From the NCBI RefSeq assembly GCF_003946915.1, contig NZ_RPOC01000001.1, positions 62,001 through 126,000 of the forward strand: a stretch of DNA of 64,000 nucleotides. The letters run 5' to 3'. The position numbers and the translations under genes are program-made. A model generated the notes under the pieces. That model ran no database searches and had not been told where the DNA came from. It worked only from the letters and a program-made list of their open reading frames with translations. Below, piece by piece: positions 7,080 through 44,893 of this stretch (within the stretch, counting starts at the first letter, position 1; each line of letters opens with the position of its first letter). The DNA comes from Flavobacterium ustbae. Lineage in GTDB: Bacteria > Bacteroidota > Bacteroidia > Flavobacteriales > Flavobacteriaceae.

Positions 7080-10000
7080 ATGTTGAAAAAATTACTGTTT
7101 TTGACGGTTTTCTTCTGGTTTTCTGCGCTTCAGGCTCAGGAAACTGAATCGCTGTACAAAACCAAAAAAGTAATTGTTTCAAAAGATACCATCCGCCTTG
7201 AAAAAATGTCTATCAACTCTGGATTTTTTCAAATTTTGAATACTAAAAACGAGCCGATCGACTCGACTTTTTATAATGTAAATTTTGAAAAAGGATATCT
7301 GCTTTTAAACGAAAAATTCCAATCAATTTCAGATACTTTAGTTGTCAATTATCTTAATTATCCAGATCTTTTAACCAAAGAATACAGCCTCTACAAAACA
7401 GATCAGATTGTAAGCGGCGACGTTGGAACAGACAAACTGTATCGATTAGATAATAATTCAAACAGTAAAAAAGTAACTCCGTTTGACGGACTGGAAACTT
7501 CAGGAAGCATTACGCGGGGTGTTACAGTTGGTAATAATCAGAGTACGGTTTTAAATTCTAATTTAGATCTTCAGATTACAGGAAAACTTTCAGACAAAGT
7601 AAGTTTGAGAGCTTCACTGCAAGACAGTAATATTCCGCTGCAAGACGGCGGTTATTCTCAAAAACTCGATCAATTTGATAATATTTTCATAGAACTTTTT
7701 AGTGATGATTGGAACATTCGCGCAGGCGATGTTTTTTTAGAAAATAGGAAAACCCAATTTTTAAGTTTCAATAAAAAAGTTCAAGGACTTTCTGCAAATT
7801 TTGATTTTGATACCGAAAAAAGCAAGACTAATGTTTTTGCTTCGGTTGCTTTTGTAAGAGGCCAATATGCCAAAAGCACTTTTATTGGACAGGAAGGAAA
7901 TCAAGGTCCATATAAATTAAAAGGTCTGAATGGCGAATTGTATGTTCTAGTGATTTCGGGTTCTGAGCGTGTTTATGTAAATGGCGTTCTGCTGAAACGT
8001 GGCGAAAACAATGATTATGTGATTGATTACAATGCGGGAGAAATTGTTTTCACTTCTCTTTTTACCATTACTTCAGAAATGCGTATTAATGTGGAATACC
8101 AATATTCGGAACGAAATTATAATAGACTAGTTACTTACGCGGGTGCAACGCACGAGAACAAAAACTGGAGTTTTGGCGGTTATTTGTATTCTGAAAATGA
8201 TATGAAAAACCAGCCTTTGCAGCAAAATCTTTCTCCAGAACAAGTTCAAATTTTAAGTGAAGCTGGAGACGATGTCAATTTGATGAAAGCGCCTTCTGCT
8301 TATGAAGATGCTTATGCCGAGAATAAAATTTTGTACAGAAAAATATTGGTCAATTCGGTTGAAGTTTATGAATATTCGAACAATCCTACTGATGTTTTGT
8401 ATAATGTGAGATTCAGTCAGGTTGGAGCAAATACAGGAAATTATATCATTCAGAACAACAATTCGGTTGAGCGTATTTATCAATATGTTGAACCCGTGAA
8501 TGGAGTTCTGCAAGGAAACTATGAACCTATTGTGCAACTTGTGGCTCCGATAAAACTCCAAGTGGCAACATTTTTAGGAAAATACAATCCGAATGAAAAA
8601 ACGTTGGTCGATTTTGAATTGGCTGTCAGCAATAATGATCAGAATTTATTTTCTGGAATTGATGATTCTAATAATGAAGGAATCGCTTTTAAAACCAATC
8701 TTAAAAAACGCCTTTTTTCTAGAGCGTGGAGTTTAGACGCTTTCGCGAATTATCAATATGTGCAGCAGGATTTTAAGTCGGTCGAGCGTTTGTATAATAT
8801 CGAATTTAATCGCGACTGGAATTTAACCGGAATCCTTTTAGGAAATCAAAGTCTTTTGGTCACGGGTTTGAATTTTGATTTGTTTTCGAAAAATAAAACT
8901 TCAAATATTGGTTTGCTCACCTATCAATTTGAGAAATTAGATTTTAGCGAAAGCTATTCTGGCGCCAGACATACGACAAATGCGCTTTTCAAATTAAAAA
9001 GATGGACAATTGAAAACAACGGAAGTTTCCTTAATTCTGATGCAACCGCTTCTACTTCAAAATTTATTAGAAACCAAACCAGAACCAAATATCATTTTGG
9101 CAAAAACTGGATTGGCGGGAGCGTGCAGCTCGAAGACAATCAGGAAAAAGATAAAATTACCAATCAGTTTTCGGCTTTAAGCCAAAGATTCTCAGAATAT
9201 GGTGTTTTTACTGGACGAGGCGACAGCACTAAAGTTTTTGTCGAAGTTGGTTTTCTGCAAAGACGAAATGATAGTTTGCAAAACGGATTATTGCAGCATG
9301 TAAATAATTCGCAGACCTATTATTTAAAGTCGAAATTAATTCAGAACAAAAAGACCGATTTAGCCGTTTATGCAAGTTACAGAAATTTGGATTTTACAGA
9401 CAAATCGAGACAAAACGAACCTTCTTTAAACTCGAGAATTTTATACAATGATCGATTTTTTAACCAATTAATGCAGATTGGAACGGCTTACGAAACCAGC
9501 TCTGGAACTATTGCCCAACAAGAATTTACGTATGTGGAAGTTCCGACAGGACAAGGCGTTTACACTTGGAATGATTACAACGGAAATGGCATTCAGGAAT
9601 TGGAGGAATTTGAAGTTGCCGTTTACCAAGATCAGGCGCGATTTGTTAGGATCTTTTTGCCGAATCAAGTTTACATTAAAACCAACCAAAATAAATTTTC
9701 GCAATCTTTAACGCTGAATCCGCTGCAATGGCAAAATGAAAAAGGTTTCAAAAAACTGCTGTCTTATTTTTACAATCAGACTTCTTTTATAATGGATAGA
9801 AAGGTAAAAAGTGACGGCGAAAAATTAGAACTCAATCCGTTTGCTTCGTCAGAAGAGAATATTTTAGGATTAAATTCGAGTTTCAGAAACAGTTTGTTCT
9901 ACAACCGAGGCAAGCAAAAACATTCTGTCACCTATTCTTATCTAGTGAACAAAGGCAAAAGTCTGCTGTCTGTTGGATCGCAAAATGTGCAAAATTATTC

Positions 10001-37163: not shown

Positions 37164-40079
37164 TTAACCAACCAAATTGATGATCTTTCCTGGAACAATA
37201 ATCACTTTATTTGGAGTTCTTCCGTCCAATTGTTTTTGTGTTCTTTCGTCTTTCATTACGATTTCTTCGATTTGTTCTTTGGTTAAATCCAAAGGTAATT
37301 CGATTGTGAAACGCATTTTTCCGTTGAAAGAAACTGGATATTCTTTATTCGTTTCAACCAAGTGTTTCTCTTCAAAAATTGGGAACGAAACTTCAGAAAT
37401 AGAAGTTGTGTTTCCTAATTGTGACCATAATTCTTCAGCAATATGCGGCGCATAAGGCGAAACCAAAATCGCTAATGGCTCTAATATGGCTCTTGAATGA
37501 CAGTTTTGAGAAGACAATTCATTCACACAAATCATAAACTGAGAAACCGAAGTATTGAAAGAGAAATTCTCAATATCATCTGCTACTTTTTTAATCGTTT
37601 TATGCAAAGATTTTAAGTTTTCTTTTGTTGGTTCGTCGTTGTTTACAATTAAACCATTATCATCAAAATACAATCGCCATAATTTTTTAAGGAAACCAAA
37701 AACTCCCGAAATACCAGCCGTATTCCAAGGTTTTGCCTGCTCCAACGGACCTAAGAACATTTCGTATAAACGTAATGTATCTGCTCCGTATTCTGCACAA
37801 ATATCGTCTGGCGTTACCACATTATAGTATGATTTCGACATTTTTTCGACTTCACGACCTACAATATATTTTCCGTTTTCGTCAAAAATAAATTCGGCTG
37901 AATTAAAATCTTCTCTCCATTTTTTAAACTTTTCAATATCCAATTCATCTGAAGAATTCACAAACTTAACATCAACACGAATTGGCTGTACATTTTGATC
38001 TCCGATTTTATTTTTAGAAACAAAAGTATTTGTTCCTTCCAATCTGTAAACATAAGCTGTCGTTCCCAAAATCATTCCCTGATTAATCAGTTTTTTGAAT
38101 GGTTCTTCTGTTGGAGCATAACCTCTGTCTTTTAAGAATTTGTTCCAGAAACGAGAATACAATAAGTGACCTGTAGCGTGCTCGCTTCCTCCAATGTATA
38201 AATCTACATTTTCCCAGTATTTTAATGCATCTTTGCTTGCAAATTCATTTTCATTGTGCGCATCCATATAACGCATCCAATACCATGAACTTCCCGCCCA
38301 ACCTGGCATTGTATTTAATTCTAAAGGAAAAATCGAAACATTGTCAACCAACTGAGTACTAACTACTGAACACTTAACACTGTCCCAAGCCCAAACAGCT
38401 GCGTTTCCTAATGGAGGCAAACCGTCTTCTGTTGGTAAATATTTTTCTACTTCTGGCAAAATAATTGGCAAATGTTGCGCGTCAATCATTTTTGGCAATC
38501 CGTTTACATAATAAACAGGAAACGGCTCTCCCCAATAACGCTGACGAGAGAAAACGGCATCACGCAAACGGTAATTTGTTTTACCAGTTCCCTGACCGAT
38601 TTTTTCCAAAGCCGTAATTGCAGCCTGAGTTGCTTCTTTATAATTTAATCCGTTTAAGAAATCAGAATTTGCTATTTCAACGTTGTCTTTAGATCCGTAA
38701 GCGGCTTCAGAAATATCAACATTTGCAAAAATGTTTTTGATTTCCTGCATTCCATTTTGTCCTTTAAAGAAATTAGCAAAAGCGTAATCTCTTTCGTCTC
38801 CGCAAGGAACCGCCATTACAGCACCTGTTCCATAACCTGCCAAAACGTAATCTCCAATCCAAACCGGAATTGGTTCTTTTGTAAATGGATGTTCAGCATA
38901 AGCTCCTGTGAAAACTCCAGAAATGGTTTTTACATCGGCCATACGCTCACGCTCCGAACGTTTAGACGTTTTTTCGATATACGCTTCAACTTCTGCTTTT
39001 TGTTCTGGAGTTGTAATTTTAGCAACCAAATCATGTTCTGGTGCCAAAGTCATAAAAGTAACTCCGAAAATAGTGTCAGGACGAGTGGTGAATACTTCGA
39101 TAAAATTTGTTTCAGGTTTCACGTTTAAAGTTTCTTCACTTTGTGCGTCAACCTGAGACTTGAAACTTGAAACTTGAAACTTAACTAAAGCTCCAACCGA
39201 TTTTCCGATCCAGTTTCTTTGAGATTCTTTAATTGATTCACTCCAATCAATATCATTTAGACCTTCAAGTAAACGTTCGGCATAAGCAGAAATTCGCATA
39301 CTCCACTGTGTCATTTTTTTTCTTATAACAGGAAAACCTCCACGCTCCGAAACTCCGTTTACAATTTCGTCGTTTGCCAAAACAGTTCCTAAGCCCGGGC
39401 ACCAGTTTACTTCAGTTTCTGCCAAATAAGTCAATCTGTATTGCAACAAGATTTTTTCTTTTTGATCTTCCGAATAAGAATTCCATTCCTCAGCAGTAAA
39501 AATAGTTACGTTATCATCGCAAACTGCTTCAACCAAAGCATTTCCTGATTCTTCAAAAACAGTAACCAACTCTGAAATATCAAAAGCTTGTCCTTGTTTT
39601 CTGCAGTACCAAGAATTGAATAATTGAATAAAAATCCACTGTGTATGTTTGTAATAATCTGGATTTGACGTACGCACTTCACGCGCCCAGTCAAATGAGA
39701 ATCCGATTTTATCTAATTGTTTTCTGTATCCGGCAATTTGTTTTCCTTCTTTGTCAACGCCTCCGTCAATATTTACACGCGTTGTATCTTCTGGACGCTG
39801 ACCCGTCTGAATCGCATATTGCTCAGCTGGCAATCCGAAACTATCGTAACCCATTGGGTGCAAAACATTGAAGCCTTGATGTCTTTTGAAACGCGAATAC
39901 ACATCTGATGCAATATACCCTAGCGGATGCCCAACGTGTAATCCTGCTCCTGACGGATAAGGAAACATGTCGAGAACATAATGCTTCGGTTTTTCAGAGT
40001 TGTTTTTTGCTGCAAAAGTTTGATTTTCTGCCCAATATTTCTGCCATTTGGCTTCTATTTCGTTTGGATTGTATTTCAT
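37164..40079 (-). CDS. leuS: Leucine--tRNA ligase with embedded repeat segment
   Basis: 971 residues, long for the family (about 860 in E. coli) partly from a Bacteroidota-type insert. It charges tRNA-Leu and edits errors. HIGH is HVGH (GAGLHVGHPLG), KMSKS is in VEKMSKSYYN, the editing site has TTRPDTIFGV, and the zinc/connective and DALA-like anticodon parts are present. Residues 300-324 are encoded by a copy of the dispersed TTTCAAGTTTCAAG repeat, giving KFQVSSFKSQV and following residues just before the editing site. A second repeat word occurs near residues 565-577. Both keep the frame, so the enzyme is presumably functional. Confidence 0.96.
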   Translation of the reverse strand: MKYNPNEIEAKWQKYWAENQTFAAKNNSEKPKHYVLDMFPYPSGAGLHVGHPLGYIASDVYSRFKRHQGFNVLHPMGYDSFGLPAEQYAIQTGQRPEDTTRVNIDGGVDKEGKQIAGYRKQLDKIGFSFDWAREVRTSNPDYYKHTQWIFIQLFNSWYCRKQGQAFDISELVTVFEESGNALVEAVCDDNVTIFTAEEWNSYSEDQKEKILLQYRLTYLAETEVNWCPGLGTVLANDEIVNGVSERGGFPVIRKKMTQWSMRISAYAERLLEGLNDIDWSESIKESQRNWIGKSVGALVKFQVSSFKSQVDAQSEETLNVKPETNFIEVFTTRPDTIFGVTFMTLAPEHDLVAKITTPEQKAEVEAYIEKTSKRSERERMADVKTISGVFTGAYAEHPFTKEPIPVWIGDYVLAGYGTGAVMAVPCGDERDYAFANFFKGQNGMQEIKNIFANVDISEAAYGSKDNVEIANSDFLNGLNYKEATQAAITALEKIGQGTGKTNYRLRDAVFSRQRYWGEPFPVYYVNGLPKMIDAQHLPIILPEVEKYLPTEDGLPPLGNAAVWAWDSVKCSVVSTQLVDNVSIFPLELNTMPGWAGSSWYWMRYMDAHNENEFASKDALKYWENVDLYIGGSEHATGHLLYSRFWNKFLKDRGYAPTEEPFKKLINQGMILGTTAYVYRLEGTNTFVSKNKIGDQNVQPIRVDVKFVNSSDELDIEKFKKWREDFNSAEFIFDENGKYIVGREVEKMSKSYYNVVTPDDICAEYGADTLRLYEMFLGPLEQAKPWNTAGISGVFGFLKKLWRLYFDDNGLIVNNDEPTKENLKSLHKTIKKVADDIENFSFNTSVSQFMICVNELSSQNCHSRAILEPLAILVSPYAPHIAEELWSQLGNTTSISEVSFPIFEEKHLVETNKEYPVSFNGKMRFTIELPLDLTKEQIEEIVMKDERTQKQLDGRTPNKVIIVPGKIINLVG
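39109..39182. repeat. TTTCAAG-family inverted repeat inside leuS
   Basis: Starts with GTTTCAGGTTTCA, which is identical to 60651-60663. It ends with a 25-base run of ACTTGAA words (39158-39182) identical to 60750-60774 in the asnS-rpoN spacer. The two sides are imperfect reverse complements. Confidence 0.8.
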
Positions 40080-40082
40080 TTT

Positions 40083-40122
40083 TAAGGTACTAAGGTTCTA
40101 AGTTGCAAAGGTTCTGAGGTTT
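40083..40122. repeat. AAGGTACTAAGGTTCTAAG words before leuS
   Basis: A short copy of the CTAAG family immediately upstream of the leuS start (minus-strand gene), so it lies in the leader or promoter of leuS. Confidence 0.6.
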
Positions 40123-40214
40123 TTCTCTCTTTGTCGCTTAATTCTAATCCGCAAATTTACATTTATTGTTGCTTGTTCCAAAGCTATTTTACTGACAAAC
40201 AAATAAAATAATAA

Positions 40215-40270
40215 ATTACGTATTTTAATTACGTAAAAATACGTATTATTGCAATCATAAAATACGTAAT
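40215..40270. promoter_or_regulatory. Cluster of four TACGTA sites with a 12-bp inverted repeat
   Basis: TACGTA starts at 40217, 40230, 40240 and 40263. The outer ATTACGTATTTT (40215-40226) and AAAATACGTAAT (40259-40270) are perfect reverse complements. The cluster is in the divergent spacer between leuS and the ModE-like gene and looks like an operator or a folded element. No factor is recognised. Confidence 0.5.
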
Positions 40271-40292
40271 GAAAAATATTAAATCTTTCTAA

Positions 40293-40438
40293 ACACATAG
40301 TCCCGACGCTTCGTGATAGATTTTTTATTCCTAAAAAAAAGACTATTAAAAAGAAATATATTTCTCACGCATAGCAAAACTATGTGTACTTTTATAAAAT
40401 GAAATGCATTTTTTCAACCATTTCAAAAACTATGTGTT
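40293..40438. repeat. ACACATAGT / ACTATGTGT inverted repeat
   Basis: ACACATAGT at 40293-40301 faces two copies of AAAACTATGTGT (ending 40387 and 40437), exactly 50 bp apart. It fills the remaining spacer in front of the ModE-like gene. Confidence 0.55.
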
Positions 40439-40449
40439 GAAAATGCTAA

Positions 40450-40812
40450 ATGAATAAATTGTCGATGTCAGAAAATAAGAAATATAATATTGAAGTCCGT
40501 GTTTGGATTGAAGAAGCTGAAGGGGCGTTTCTTGGAATTGGAAAAATCTGGCTTTTGGAAAACATCAAGAAAACCGGATCGATTACTAATGCCGCAAAAG
40601 AGATGAAAATGGCGTATCGTCAGGCTTGGCAATTGGTCGAAGAAATGAATCAACGTGCCGAATCTCCTTTGGTTGAAAAACTTCTTGGCGGAAAAGGCGG
40701 CGGCGGCGCAAAGTTGACCGAAGCAGGCGAACGTGCGATTGAAGTATTTTATGAAGTCGAAAAGCGTATTAAAGAATTTGCTTTGAAAGAAACTCAGAAT
40801 TTAAAATTTTAA
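40450..40812 (+). CDS. One-domain ModE-like winged-helix regulator
   Basis: 120 residues, only the DNA-binding domain of ModE/LysR type: KTGSITNAAKEMKMAYRQAW, LVEEMNQRAESPLVEK and the diagnostic GGKGGGGAKLTEAG. E. coli ModE (262 residues) has two further molybdate-binding MOP domains that are absent here, so how it would sense molybdate is open. An internal ATG at 40465 is an alternative start. It lies upstream of, and co-oriented with, a TonB receptor and a molybdopterin-fold lipoprotein, and a pair of palindromes separates it from the receptor. Confidence 0.88.
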   Translation: MNKLSMSENKKYNIEVRVWIEEAEGAFLGIGKIWLLENIKKTGSITNAAKEMKMAYRQAWQLVEEMNQRAESPLVEKLLGGKGGGGAKLTEAGERAIEVFYEVEKRIKEFALKETQNLKF

Positions 40813-40903
40813 TCGAAAACTAATAGGCTTTAATTTTTAAAGCCTCACTTATGATTTTAATCATATTTTATAAATTCAAAAAGCATTTTTTTTGCTCTAT
40901 AAA

Positions 40904-40929
40904 TCAGTATTCATTTTAAAACATACTGA
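40904..40929. promoter_or_regulatory. Operator-like palindrome, copy 1
   Basis: TCAGTAT and ATACTGA flank a 12-bp AT-rich core (TCATTTTAAAAC). It lies 79 bp before the receptor start. Confidence 0.6.
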
Positions 40930-40968
40930 TATGATTTCAAAAACAAATAACTAAACCATTTTTAACCA

Positions 40969-40994
40969 GCAGTATTCTTTTAAAAACATACTGA
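40969..40994. promoter_or_regulatory. Operator-like palindrome, copy 2
   Basis: CAGTAT and ATACTG again flank 12 bp (TCTTTTAAAAAC). It is the same sequence and spacing as copy 1, 65 bp away and 14 bp before the receptor ATG, well placed to block or activate transcription. Confidence 0.6.
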
Positions 40995-41007
40995 AAATAC
41001 CTCCTTT

Positions 41008-43011
41008 ATGAAATTAAAACTTCTTTCATTTTTATTTCTGCCCCTCATCGGATTTGCCCAGCAAAACAATCCAAAAACAACAGATTCTCTTAAGATTTCA
41101 AACGTCTTTAATCTTGGAGAAGTTATTATTACCAATCATCAAAATAAAGACACTTTAAACCGAATAACTTCAAAAGCAATGGAATCTCAAAACAAAATGG
41201 AGGTTTCCAGAGCTTTAAACATGTTGCCTGGAGTCAGTTTAACTGCTTCTGGCCCGAGAAACGAATCTATGGTTTCGATTAGAGGTTTTGATTTAAGGCA
41301 GGTTCCTGTTTATATGGACGGAATTCCAGTTTATGTGCCCTACGATGGTTATGTAGATTTGGCTAGATTTACCACTTTTGATTTGGCTGCTGTTGATGTT
41401 TCAAAAGGATTTTCGTCTGTACTTTATGGCCCAAATTCACTTGGAGGCGCCATAAATCTTATTTCGAGAAAACCTTCCAAAAAGTTAGAATACGATGGCT
41501 CTTTGGGAATGATTAATGAAAACGGATATAGAGGAAATGTAAATATCGGTTCCAACTTAGGTAAATTCTATTTTCAAGGCGGATTTTCTTATTTGGACAG
41601 AAATTCTACCAGAATGTCTTCGAACTTCATTCCTACAGCCAACGAAAACGGCGGTCAAAGAGACAATTCGTACCGAACAGATCAAAAAATTAGCTTTAAA
41701 GTTGGTTGGACTCCAACCGAAAAAAGTGAATACGCAATTGGTTACATCAATCAGCAAGGTGAAAAAGGAAATCCAGTTTATACAGGCTACGACACACAAA
41801 ATTCGCTTTTGCTAAAACCTCGCTACTGGCAATGGCCAAACTGGGATAAGGAAAGTTTTTATTTTATTTCGAACTCTGCTTTCGATAATAAAAACAGTTT
41901 CAAAAGCAGATTGTATTTTGATCGTTTCAAAAACACACTCGACAGCTACGACGATGCCACTTATTCGACACAAACAAAACCTTATGCTTTTGAAAGTATT
42001 TATAACGATTACACTTTTGGAGGAAATCTGGAATACAACACTAAAATAATTCCTAAAAACGATTTAAAAATTGCTTTCCATTTTAAAGAAGATGTGCATC
42101 GTGAGAACAATTTTGGCGAACCTGTTCGCCATTTTATAGACAATACGATTTTAATCGGAATTGAAGATGTTTACAAAGTCAGTTCAAAATTTACCGTTAT
42201 TCCAGGTGTTAGTTACAACATTCGAAAAAACCTTGAAGCCGAAGATTATAATAGTACTACAAAAACAATTTCAGATTTTCCAGATGCTAAAGCAAGTGAC
42301 GCTTTTAATGCGCAAGTTGGATTTTTCTATCAATTAAATAGCCAGCAAAAATTAGGCACTACCATTTCTCAGAAAACTAGATTTGCAACAATCAAAGACC
42401 GCTATTCTTACAGAATGGGAACTGCAATTCCGAACCCAGATTTGAAACCTGAAAAAGCAGTTAATTACGAATTGAATTATACCGCAAATCTTTTCGAGAA
42501 AATCACTTTTCAAACTGCATTATTCTACAGTTCGCTTTCAGATGCCATCTTAAATGTCAGCAACGTTGAACCTGGAAAATCGCAAATGCAAAATTTTGGA
42601 GAAGCCGATTATAAAGGAATCGAAGCACAATTAAATTATGGAATTCTAGACAACCTTTCGCTGAATTTGAATTACACTTACATCGAAAGAAAAAACATTA
42701 CCAATCCAAATATTCATTTTACAGATGTTCCGAATACGAAAGTTATGGGGACTTTAGAGTACAGCCCGATTAAAATAATACGATTAATTGCCAATGCCGA
42801 ATTTAATTCGCCACGTTTCAGTACAAGTTATGGGGCAAGAGTTCCAGATTACACTCTTTTGAATTTATATGCTTCAGGCAAAATCTTAAAAAATTTCAGC
42901 CTCGACGCAGGGATTAATAACATATTCGACAGAAATTATAGTCTTGTAGAAGGCTATCCAGAAGAAGGGCGCAATTTCTTTGTGACACTTCGCTTTTTCA
43001 ATTTTAACTAA
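41008..43011 (+). CDS. TonB-dependent receptor next to ModE-like regulator
   Basis: 667 residues: signal peptide (1-18, ending GFAQ), no carboxypeptidase-like domain, a plug (about 35-155, GEVIITN, NMLPGVSLTASGPRNESMVS, IRGFDLRQVPVYMDGIPVYV, GPNSLGGAINLISRKP) and a barrel to a C-terminal aromatic (RFFNFN). It resembles the FecA/siderophore-receptor class in size, but the neighbours suggest molybdate, tungstate or a molybdenum chelate as cargo; this is inference. The lipoprotein follows after 20 bp, so the two form an operon. Confidence 0.9.
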   Translation: MKLKLLSFLFLPLIGFAQQNNPKTTDSLKISNVFNLGEVIITNHQNKDTLNRITSKAMESQNKMEVSRALNMLPGVSLTASGPRNESMVSIRGFDLRQVPVYMDGIPVYVPYDGYVDLARFTTFDLAAVDVSKGFSSVLYGPNSLGGAINLISRKPSKKLEYDGSLGMINENGYRGNVNIGSNLGKFYFQGGFSYLDRNSTRMSSNFIPTANENGGQRDNSYRTDQKISFKVGWTPTEKSEYAIGYINQQGEKGNPVYTGYDTQNSLLLKPRYWQWPNWDKESFYFISNSAFDNKNSFKSRLYFDRFKNTLDSYDDATYSTQTKPYAFESIYNDYTFGGNLEYNTKIIPKNDLKIAFHFKEDVHRENNFGEPVRHFIDNTILIGIEDVYKVSSKFTVIPGVSYNIRKNLEAEDYNSTTKTISDFPDAKASDAFNAQVGFFYQLNSQQKLGTTISQKTRFATIKDRYSYRMGTAIPNPDLKPEKAVNYELNYTANLFEKITFQTALFYSSLSDAILNVSNVEPGKSQMQNFGEADYKGIEAQLNYGILDNLSLNLNYTYIERKNITNPNIHFTDVPNTKVMGTLEYSPIKIIRLIANAEFNSPRFSTSYGARVPDYTLLNLYASGKILKNFSLDAGINNIFDRNYSLVEGYPEEGRNFFVTLRFFNFN

Positions 43012-43031
43012 ATTCAAAAATTATATTTATT

Positions 43032-43625
43032 ATGAAAACGCAAAATTATATTCTCGTTTTACTGATTGCATTTTCATGCTCAATGTGTAATTCTTCTAAA
43101 AAAGATAAAGAAGATACTGTTGTAGAAAAAACAGTAACAACAGACAATGATAAACACGAAGTTCTTACTCCAGAAGACAGCTTAAAAATGGTTAATCATT
43201 CGATTGAAGTCAAAGGCGATGTCGAATTTCCATTGAACCTGACAGTAGATTCTTTAAAAAAGATGAAAGTGGTTACCATTGACGATTTTAAAGTAGTTTG
43301 CCAGAGCGGAGAAGTAAAAAAAGATAATAAAATATGCAAAGGTGTTCTTTTGAAAGATATTTTAGAAAAAGCAAAAATCAAACAAAACGGTCACAAAGAC
43401 CGAAACTTTTATATCGTAGCAAGAGCTTCAGACGATTATAAAGCAACATTTTCTTGGGCAGAACTTTTTAATAATCCGACAGGAGATAATGTTTTTGTTC
43501 TTTTTGAAGAAAATGGAAAACCAGTTAAAAACGGAGAAATGATTGCCATTAGCAAAACCGACATTAAAACTGGCCCAAGACATGTTTATTGGTTGAAAAG
43601 CATTGAAGTTTTTAAAGTTGAATGA
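43032..43625 (+). CDS. Lipoprotein with molybdopterin-oxidoreductase (sulfite-oxidase-like) fold
   Basis: 197 residues. A lipoprotein signal ends at Cys16 or Cys19 (AFSCSMCNSS). Residues about 55-195 follow the Oxidored_molyb/sulfite-oxidase-like pattern: EVKGDVEFPLNLTVDSLKKM, VVCQSGEVKKDNKICKGVLL, KDILEKAKI, ARASDDYKATFSW, FVLFEENGKPVKN and HVYWLKSIEVFKV. Whether it binds the cofactor is unknown; Cys residues are present around the VVCQSGEVKK block, but the larger cofactor-binding elements are short. Encoded 20 bp after the receptor. Confidence 0.8.
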   Translation: MKTQNYILVLLIAFSCSMCNSSKKDKEDTVVEKTVTTDNDKHEVLTPEDSLKMVNHSIEVKGDVEFPLNLTVDSLKKMKVVTIDDFKVVCQSGEVKKDNKICKGVLLKDILEKAKIKQNGHKDRNFYIVARASDDYKATFSWAELFNNPTGDNVFVLFEENGKPVKNGEMIAISKTDIKTGPRHVYWLKSIEVFKVE

Positions 43626-43860
43626 AGGTTCAGAGGGGCAAAGCAACAAAGGAATAAAGAGGCAAAGCAACAAAGGGATAAAGGTTTGAACATAGCCCAC
43701 GGTTTCGACCTTGGGTACGCAACGAATACACAATACGTTTCCCACGGTTGAAACCGTGGGCTATGTTTGAAAAAAGAATATAAAATTTGCTCACAAAGTC
43801 GCAAAGATTAATCAAACTTTGCGTCTTTGCGACTTTGCGCGATTTTTTTAAGGCTTAAAG
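43622..43860. repeat. Composite repeat island before ftsX
   Basis: In order: GGGGCAAAGCAACAAAGG words; CATAGCCCACGGTTTC (43691-43706) with its perfect complement GAAACCGTGGGCTATG (43750-43765); and CAAAGTCGCAAAGA (43794-43807) with complement TCTTTGCGACTTTG (43824-43837). No gene is evident in this spacer of about 390 bp. Confidence 0.7.
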
Positions 43861-44017
43861 CGAAATTCTTTGCGTGATTTGAGATTAAAAAAATCTCTCT
43901 CAGAAAAAAATCTCAATTCGATATTGTATATTTATGCTAATAAAGTCAAAACTTTGAACGTTATTAACCTAAATAAAAAAATTGTTTACTATTTTTACCA
44001 CATAATTTAAGCAGACT

Positions 44018-44893
44018 ATGAGTTCTAACTTTGATAAATTTCAAAAGCGCAGGTTAATTTCCTCTTATTTTTCGGTAGTATTAAGTGTATTCTTAGTTTT
44101 ATTCCTTTTAGGAGTACTAGGACTATTCATTATTAATTCTAAACAGCTAGCTGACGATTTTAAAGAAAAAATCGCTATGACTGTTTTCTTCAAAAATGAA
44201 GCCAACGACAGTATTGTAAAAGCCTTTAACACTGAACTAAAAAGAGCGCCTTTTGCATTATCTTATGTTTATGTTTCTAAAGAAAAAGCAGCAAAAGAGC
44301 ATACAGACATTATCGGAGAAGATTTCTTAACCTTTTTAGGAGAAAATCCTTTATTGAATTCATACGACATTCACTTAAAAGCAGATTATGTAGAGAGAGA
44401 CAGCATTGCCAAAATCGAAAGCCGTCTTCGTCAAAATACTATGATTTCAGACATTGTTTACGACAAGCAATTGGTAAATCTTGTAAACGACAACATCAGA
44501 AAAGTAAGTATGTGGATTTTGATTATTAGTGGTTTCTTAACTGTAATTGCTGTTTTATTAATCAATAGTTCACTTCGTTTATCTATACATTCTAATCGTT
44601 TTATTATTAAAACCATGCAGATGGTTGGTGCTACAAAAGCATTTATCCGTAAACCGTTTGTAATGCGAAGCGTAAAACTTGGAATGTTGGGCGCTGGTCT
44701 TGCCATTGTTGCTTTAATTGCACTTTTGCTTTATGTAGACAACAATTTCCCTGGTTTAGGAATTCTAGAAGACAAAGCTTTAACGGGCTTAGTTTTGGTT
44801 GCCGTTTTCGGATTGGGAGTTTTGATTACTTGGGTAAGCACGCATTTTGCGACACAGCGTTTCTTGAATCTAAGAACAGACGATCTTTATTAA
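44018..44893 (+). CDS. ftsX: Cell division permease-like FtsX
   Basis: 291 residues with the FtsX layout: a membrane helix near 20-40, a periplasmic domain (about 45-160), then three helices (about 170-190, 225-245, 260-282) in the MacB/FtsX fold, with MQMVGATKAFIRKPFVMRS between them. It is the membrane partner of FtsE in controlling cell-wall hydrolysis at division. FtsE is not nearby, as is usual for this group. It heads a run with DUF3098, uppP and truB. Confidence 0.93.
   Translation: MSSNFDKFQKRRLISSYFSVVLSVFLVLFLLGVLGLFIINSKQLADDFKEKIAMTVFFKNEANDSIVKAFNTELKRAPFALSYVYVSKEKAAKEHTDIIGEDFLTFLGENPLLNSYDIHLKADYVERDSIAKIESRLRQNTMISDIVYDKQLVNLVNDNIRKVSMWILIISGFLTVIAVLLINSSLRLSIHSNRFIIKTMQMVGATKAFIRKPFVMRSVKLGMLGAGLAIVALIALLLYVDNNFPGLGILEDKALTGLVLVAVFGLGVLITWVSTHFATQRFLNLRTDDLY

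Follow-up and report, generated by a model that had tools for sequence, protein, structure and literature searches.

Gene content of the locus

The stretch of DNA analysed here (the window) comprises 64,000 nt of Flavobacterium ustbae contig NZ_RPOC01000001.1 (GCF_003946915.1, positions 62,001–126,000, forward strand). Three genes on its + strand, encoding a ModE-type regulator, a TonB-dependent outer-membrane receptor and a short lipoprotein, are flanked by leuS (37164–40079, − strand) and ftsX (44018–44893, + strand), and two copies of a 24-nt palindrome, CAGTAT-N12-ATACTG, precede the receptor gene (Table 1). A first-pass annotation, made from the letters alone, had proposed these genes as a molybdenum uptake unit; its three open frames were confirmed exactly, and the two palindromes between the regulator and receptor genes are a feature absent from it. 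We interpret the gene set as a molybdenum-acquisition unit, with a probability of roughly three in four. The uptake proposal is supported by modABC, molybdenum cofactor (Moco) and ModE genes as neighbours and by the ModE-type palindromes, from which we infer transport itself. Computation shows what the genes are, how they are arranged in other genomes, that the element is conserved, that Moco genes co-occur and that ModB is absent.

Table 1. The three-gene unit and its predicted operators (positions in the window)
Feature	Position	Strand	Basis
One-domain ModE regulator (winged helix only, no TOBE/DiMop)	40450..40812	+	Pfam/NCBIfam, PDB relatives, orthologues in same slot
Distal 24-nt palindrome CAGTATTCATTTTAAAACATACTG, predicted ModE operator	40905..40928		1 of 2 genome copies at ≤2 mismatches
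Proximal 24-nt palindrome CAGTATTCTTTTAAAAACATACTG, ends 14 nt before receptor start codon	40970..40993		Similar place upstream of orthologous receptor genes
TonB-dependent outer-membrane receptor, 667 aa, predicted importer of molybdate or a Mo complex	41008..43011	+	Domains, orthologues beside modABC
Short SUOX/PruR-fold lipoprotein (PF00174), predicted capture, release or sensing partner	43032..43625	+	Pfam, fold comparison

The regulator frame encodes 120 aa, and its true start is probably the ATG at 40465, as judged by eye from 115-aa orthologues. The PF00126 match exceeds its cut-off, while the score against TIGR00637 (86.1 bits, E = 1.4e-24) falls below the model's 98.5-bit cut-off, which none of 299 Flavobacterium genomes reaches. 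No TOBE/Mop domain was reported in the Pfam and NCBIfam searches, which agrees with the earlier description of a ModE-type protein lacking its molybdate-sensing domains. The closest PDB relatives are the ModE entries 2ijl, 1b9m and 1o7l; a one-domain ModE is not new in itself, the 2ijl chain having 135 residues.

The second gene does encode a TonB receptor, with plug and barrel domains above the Pfam cut-offs (PF07715, 78.7 bits; PF00593, 97.5 bits). Among the best 25 of 29 matched NCBIfam receptor families, which include haem, siderophore, B12 and copper models, no cut-off is reached, the best score being 148.5 bits against a cut-off of 316.85; the nearest named receptors by sequence are of the haem, siderophore, colicin I and cobalamin types. 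The AlphaFold model of the receptor (mean predicted local distance difference test score, pLDDT, 54.7; plug region unusable) was not used.

The lipoprotein gene follows the receptor gene after 20 nt. Its 197-aa product matches PF00174 (34 bits, cut-off 24), is the sole match to that family in the genome and contains a lipobox-like FSCSMC, read by eye. The predicted structure (mean pLDDT 76.4) has PruR (7kom) as its best Foldseek match; comparison with PruR VIA gave Z = 14.4 over 121 residues (root-mean-square deviation 2.5) and with 2blf, representing the SUOX core fold, Z = 15.6 over 138 residues (2.6). In its fold the model thus resembles both the pterin-binding PruR proteins and the sulfite dehydrogenase core. 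When the lipoprotein sequence by itself was searched against the PDB, nothing matched, and its profile gave weak, probably chance matches (the abscisic acid receptors at E = 0.15 and above, and SorA at 0.88). Residue C90 stands where, by eye, we take the Mo-ligating cysteine of the family to lie. This cysteine is present in only 9 of 30 aligned relatives and 11 of 29 orthologues in the same genomic slot, so a Mo-cysteine enzyme is unlikely to be the general function of the lipoprotein. The sulfite-oxidase-like fold assigned in the first-pass annotation stands, with a correction: most aligned relatives lack the cysteine of the window copy, and the size is nearer to PruR than to most matched SUOX enzymes (345–458 aa; YedY, 261). 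According to PMC13259868, PruR proteins bind pterins and have no such cysteine.

The cysteine form, a VCQSGE loop at codon 90, is the one found in the 11 of 29 slot orthologues (loci L041–L049 and L063 are involved). The window's receptor family is present in 9 of the 11 cysteine-form genomes (one with a broken gene) and in 0 of the 18 without the cysteine. Judged by tree, this link of cysteine to receptor type is suggestive, and comes largely from one clade plus L063.

The leuS–ftsX slot across the genus

The lipoprotein has close orthologues in 29 of the 299 genus genomes (37 when distant ones are counted), and in all 28 besides the window's own the gene lies between leuS and ftsX. The receptor is present in 14 genomes, all of which carry moaA, as do 117 genomes overall. 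Of the 76 genomes with a ModE domain, 74 are moaA-positive, and completeness is 68% and 70% in the remaining two; ModB exceeds its cut-off in 12, again all moaA-positive. The Fisher tests applied to these co-occurrences ignore kinship.

The contents of the slot vary: ModE is accompanied by a window-type receptor, by an unrelated 852-aa receptor, or by both, so that the position of the window receptor can be filled by an unrelated receptor family or, elsewhere, by a porin. In the slots of L130 and L133 the order is ModE, porin, modA-mop-modB-modC, and in that of L123 it is ModE, porin, TauE. The slots of L200 and L201 hold modABC, with no ModE found there; L202 covers the leuS side only. In the two genomes whose receptor follows modA-mop-modB-modC elsewhere (L075 and L142, below), ModE stays alone in its slot (L140, L141). 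Gene order therefore suggests that the leuS–ftsX slot behaves as a Mo-transport slot.

Outside the slot, receptor orthologues in L075 and L142 (83% and 81%) lie directly downstream of modA-mop-modB-modC; loci with an orthologue beside modABC are L075, L142, L260, L267, L268, L271 and L275 (three places carry two labels, L265 being L075, L270 being L142 and L323 being L070). By NCBIfam, the L075 modA and ModB are above their cut-offs, while Mop and modC are below theirs. In L070 a 51% receptor relative is found within a Moco operon, between moeA and TauE-PF00174-moeB.

Two further outer-membrane proteins were observed at this slot. The unrelated 852-aa TonB receptor occurs in the ModE slot of many species (L041:11456–14014, L043, L048, L052 and others). 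An alginate-export-type porin (PF13372, tested on L130 only) follows ModE ahead of modABC or TauE in L123, L130 and L133 and, from its position, is a putative third outer-membrane solution at the same slot.

A ModE-type palindrome upstream of the receptor

The two copies in the window are its only perfect TAT-N12-ATA palindromes, and they are also the only copies of the 24-nt element in the whole genome at ≤2 mismatches. The element was found upstream of 11 of the 12 orthologous receptor genes examined, the exception being L070 (for the broken receptor gene of L043, the downstream half was not counted), and also upstream of the window receptor and that of L076. It precedes 29 of 30 genes for the unrelated 852-aa receptor. 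It usually lies at about −40 (−40 to −16) relative to the start codon, and its interior is oriented and strongly conserved. Across 50 leuS–ftsX slots other than that of the window, with L044 and L124 counted as ModE-bearing, the element is present in 33/33 slots with ModE and a receptor, in 1/10 with ModE but without a receptor (L044, where it precedes the lipoprotein gene) and in 0/7 without ModE.

This association extends to whole genomes. Among 80 chosen genomes, 40 of the 50 with ModE carry the element and none of the 30 ModE-negative ones does, and a reversed-pattern control gave 0. The 40/50 figure arises partly by construction, since loci of this sort supplied the motif; the 0/30 figure and the single-target pattern do not. 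Of 56 genome-wide matches, 52 fall ≤1 kb from ModE or receptor coordinates, and the remaining four are three matches at two mismatches and one copy preceding the di-heme gene of the modABC locus L203. Three genomes (G273, G233 and G290) have the receptor at a distance from ModE, and there too it carries the element.

The L203 copy (7332–7355) carries one mismatch and stands at a di-heme gene beside modABC, in a genome whose receptor is in the ModE slot (L143).

The geometry of the element recalls a known operator. PMC2700814 gives the E. coli ModE consensus as ATCGCTATATANNNNNNTATATAACGAT, and the window element shares its TAT-N12-ATA geometry. The E. coli outer arms, CG(C/T), are not in the window copies, which have CAG instead; CG arms are found outside Flavobacterium and preceding Moco-operon ModE genes. 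The winged-helix region is kept among the ModE proteins compared, while the outer operator arm differs, CAG here against CG(T/C) in the E. coli type. CAGTAT-N12-ATACTG is a predicted ModE operator.

A paralogous one-domain ModE was also observed in Moco operons, with CGTTAT-N12-ATAACG upstream in 14 of 19 loci (L126, L127, L135, L150, L152–L159, L161 and L162), starting ≤40 nt from the start codon in 11; none was found upstream in the other five (L128, L131, L132, L134 and L149). It is probable, from these sites, that the Moco operon with the paralogous ModE is autoregulated through an E. coli-type site.

Receptor loci beyond the genus

A contig scan with two receptor peptide patterns, one genome per species, was used to collect relatives, of which the best 80 of 344 were kept. 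These come from Flavobacterium, Dyadobacter, Pedobacter, Chitinophaga, Spirosoma, Runella, Mucilaginibacter and others, including one metagenome-assembled genome (MAG) labelled Ignavibacteria. ModE lies ≤6 kb from the receptor in 52 of the 80 loci, PF00174 ≤4 kb in 71, and both in 48, as counted with profiles built partly from these loci. Co-occurrence across genomes, a check set beforehand, was strong: in the 50 loci not labelled Flavobacterium/Flavobacteriaceae, ModE is found in 33 and PF00174 in 42, all ≤2 kb away and none in the remaining flank. By our own reading, which excludes two weak matches, modABC, Moco or TauE genes are present in 15 of the 80.

A TAT-N12-ATA palindrome with ≥5/6 arm pairs was found upstream of the receptor in 34 of 52 loci (L276–L330 less three), against 28 of 1040 random 240-nt segments from the same loci. 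Its arms are mainly CGATAT and CGTTAT, each accounting for 17 of 40 matches. Two of the 52 loci are Flavobacterium MAGs, both palindrome-negative. PF00174 is missing from five MAG loci (L279–L282 and L284), four of which, L282 being the exception, have no ModE either.

Molybdenum use and the inner-membrane step

The genome of the window (4.9 Mb; its named near relatives are Flavobacterium) encodes a Moco operon with the order moeA-TauE-MobA-SUMT-moeB-moaE-moaC/mog-moaA, named by reference similarity or by eye. A protein beside this operon is nearest to assimilatory NasC (843 bits, cut-off 1100), and the genome has three PF00384 and two MoCoBD_2 matches above cut-off. ModB gave 0 TIGR02141 matches. 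The presence of moaA and of Mo-enzyme matches, with no ModB match, therefore identifies the genome as a Mo user without ModB. The earlier claim that ABC molybdate genes are lacking thus holds for ModB; ModA and ModC were not searched in that genome.

A different permease accompanies Moco synthesis in most moaA-positive genomes of the genus. Counted at E ≤1e-40, a TauE/TSUP permease alone is present in 102 of the 117 moaA-positive genomes, ModB alone in 12, both in none and neither in three; the permease is found in only 2 of 182 moaA-negative genomes. A moaA tree built from 60 selected genomes of the 117, which drew long-branch warnings, shows at least eight changes of the TauE/ModB state. Five independent pairs on supported branches nearly always agree in the TauE/ModB direction; the sign test is not significant (p = 0.0625) because five pairs are too few. 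We read this pattern as replacement of ModABC by the TauE/TSUP permease, which makes the family a candidate for inner-membrane molybdate transport.

The genome's own TauE/TSUP permease gene lies in the Moco operon, at L208:11061–11807.

Proposed function and alternative explanations

Mo-loaded ModE acts as a repressor in E. coli, and the direction of regulation proposed here follows that analogy; binding of ModE to the element, the substrate and the roles of the lipoprotein and permease are inferred as well. The one-domain ModE would bind the palindromes, most simply repressing when molybdenum is ample; scarcity would free the palindromes from ModE, so that receptor and lipoprotein are made. 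The receptor, energised by TonB, would then move molybdate or a scarce Mo complex through the outer membrane, and the co-made SUOX/PruR-fold lipoprotein may capture, unload or pass on the substrate or a Mo-tied pterin. In this ModB-less genome the inner-membrane step would probably fall to the Moco-operon TauE/TSUP permease, and the imported metal would be used by the nitrate-reductase-like and xanthine-dehydrogenase-like enzymes. A bolder extension, which we offer tentatively and regard as doubtful, is that the whole Mo route of ModABC-less Flavobacterium is ABC-free (TonB receptor, PruR-like lipoprotein and TauE/TSUP permease), with the receptor importing carrier-bound Mo, possibly a pterin or catechol 'molybdophore', that is unloaded by the pterin-fold lipoprotein and, in other genera, by an MbnH-like di-heme enzyme as well.

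Several observations weigh against molybdenum acquisition. The window ModE has no molybdate-binding domain, which leaves Mo sensing by ModE unexplained. Ten of the 50 genomes with ModE have no copy of the element (in three ModE stands alone, three are of the porin type, and the others are G162, G030, G036 and G079), and two of the three porin-type upstreams contain only degenerate forms. Neither the CAGTAT nor the CGTTAT palindrome was found upstream of modA at ≤2 mismatches in any of 12 loci (ten of these upstreams were also read for other palindromes). The lipoprotein occurs without ModE or receptor in 5 of the 50 slots (L051, L057, L058, L059 and L062). Among the 80 receptor loci, 28 have no ModE nearby and nine no PF00174, and 35 have, ≤4 kb from the receptor, an MbnH-like di-heme gene of a type known from copper loci. 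Genus receptor holders are mostly large genomes of related species. Finally, molybdenum and tungsten are not separable by the computations made here.

The alternative that survives best, although we consider it unlikely, is that the receptor imports copper, an iron-siderophore, haem or a pterin co-needed by Mo users, with ModE control forming part of a wider Mo/nitrate programme. The types of its nearest named receptors and the frequent di-heme gene are in keeping with this. PMC3621798 treats MbnH/MbnP pairs together with copper-binding methanobactin operons and states that no data link close MbnP homologues to copper. The receptor, however, scores far short of the cut-offs of the families listed, and the recognised recurring neighbours are modABC, Moco biosynthesis genes, TauE-type permeases and ModE; these neighbours were identified by comparison with reference genes, both Mo-related and local, and iron, haem and copper genes were not systematically searched. 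By eye, no siderophore or copper set was seen in L070, L071, L075, L076 or L077, again short of a systematic search.

The di-heme protein at L075:9524–10642 is nearest to the MbnH family, at 267.9 bits against a cut-off of 362.85 (scored for L075 only).

It is improbable to a somewhat greater degree that the 24-nt element works as an RNA hairpin or is bound by some other regulator, tied to ModE by neighbourhood only. Its position close to the start codon, its conserved and oriented interior and a possible six-pair hairpin would fit an RNA element, as would some arm variants (CAGTGT) that retain G-U pairing. Other variants, such as ACACACTG, disrupt pairing, and no Rfam family was found at gathering scores in 40000–44100. 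The element was found in none of the 30 ModE-negative genomes and in 0/5 lipoprotein-only slots, it accompanies receptors distant from ModE, and the palindrome of the Moco-operon ModE genes fits the E. coli consensus, all of which favour a ModE operator.

ModE and ModA elsewhere handle both molybdate and tungstate, and the two metals look alike to our computations; tungstate as the physiological substrate is nevertheless very unlikely, since nitrate-reductase-like and xanthine-dehydrogenase-like enzymes such as those of this genome are usually Mo enzymes, and the ModA beside an orthologous receptor scores 202.7 bits as molybdate-binding (cut-off 62.5) and only 20.9 as WtpA. Least probable of all is that the lipoprotein is a working sulfite-oxidase-type molybdoenzyme which the unit serves in place of Mo import: the PF00174 match, the SUOX fold and C90 fit such an enzyme, but the short length and the scarcity of the cysteine do not, and the receptor and palindromes are left unexplained.

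Relation to known systems

Molybdenum acquisition by this unit would share with the E. coli ModE/ModABC regulon the winged helix, the TAT-N12-ATA geometry and, in other species, a slot or operon with modA-mop-modB-modC. It differs in that the window ModE has one domain, the target of the element is an outer-membrane receptor with none found preceding modA, the Flavobacterium outer arm is CAG rather than CG(T/C), and the genome of the window has no ModB. The lipoprotein resembles PruR in being a short, secreted SUOX-fold protein (PruR, about 170 aa), and is unlike it in having the cysteine and a lipobox (by eye), in being made with a receptor, and in having the receptor and ftsX as neighbours with no DcpA/DTB-type partner beside it. 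With methanobactin loci (MbnT with MbnP/MbnH) the receptor loci share a TonB receptor, a small periplasmic protein and, in the 35 of 80 noted above, an MbnH-like gene; unlike those loci, they have a PF00174 protein in place of MbnP, ModE-type palindromes and Mo-gene neighbours, and the window slot has no di-heme gene.

PMC8602904 describes the TonB-dependent receptors MnoT (Mn) and OprC (Cu) as scarcity-induced importers of scarce metals. The unit would share with them active outer-membrane import of a scarce metal, its predicted substrate being molybdenum. Since TonB receptors for scarce metals are known, the kind of system is known. Among the matches listed in the open-access literature, we found no TonB receptor that operator, operon and phyletic evidence links to molybdenum, and no TauE-type transporter for molybdate; so far as those matches show, the novelty lies in the metal, in the near single-target ModE-type element and in the PruR-like partner.

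A 2018 survey (PMC6147048) counted 278 of 3683 Mo-using bacteria without a recognised Mo transporter and considered that further uptake systems may exist. For Mo users of this kind the unit gives candidates at both membranes. The predictions, comprising operator, receptor, lipoprotein and TSUP permease, are specific and testable in an ordinary soil Flavobacterium; F. johnsoniae CI04 (locus L258) is one bearer of the unit. If they are true, molybdenum can be limiting enough to warrant active uptake across the outer membrane.

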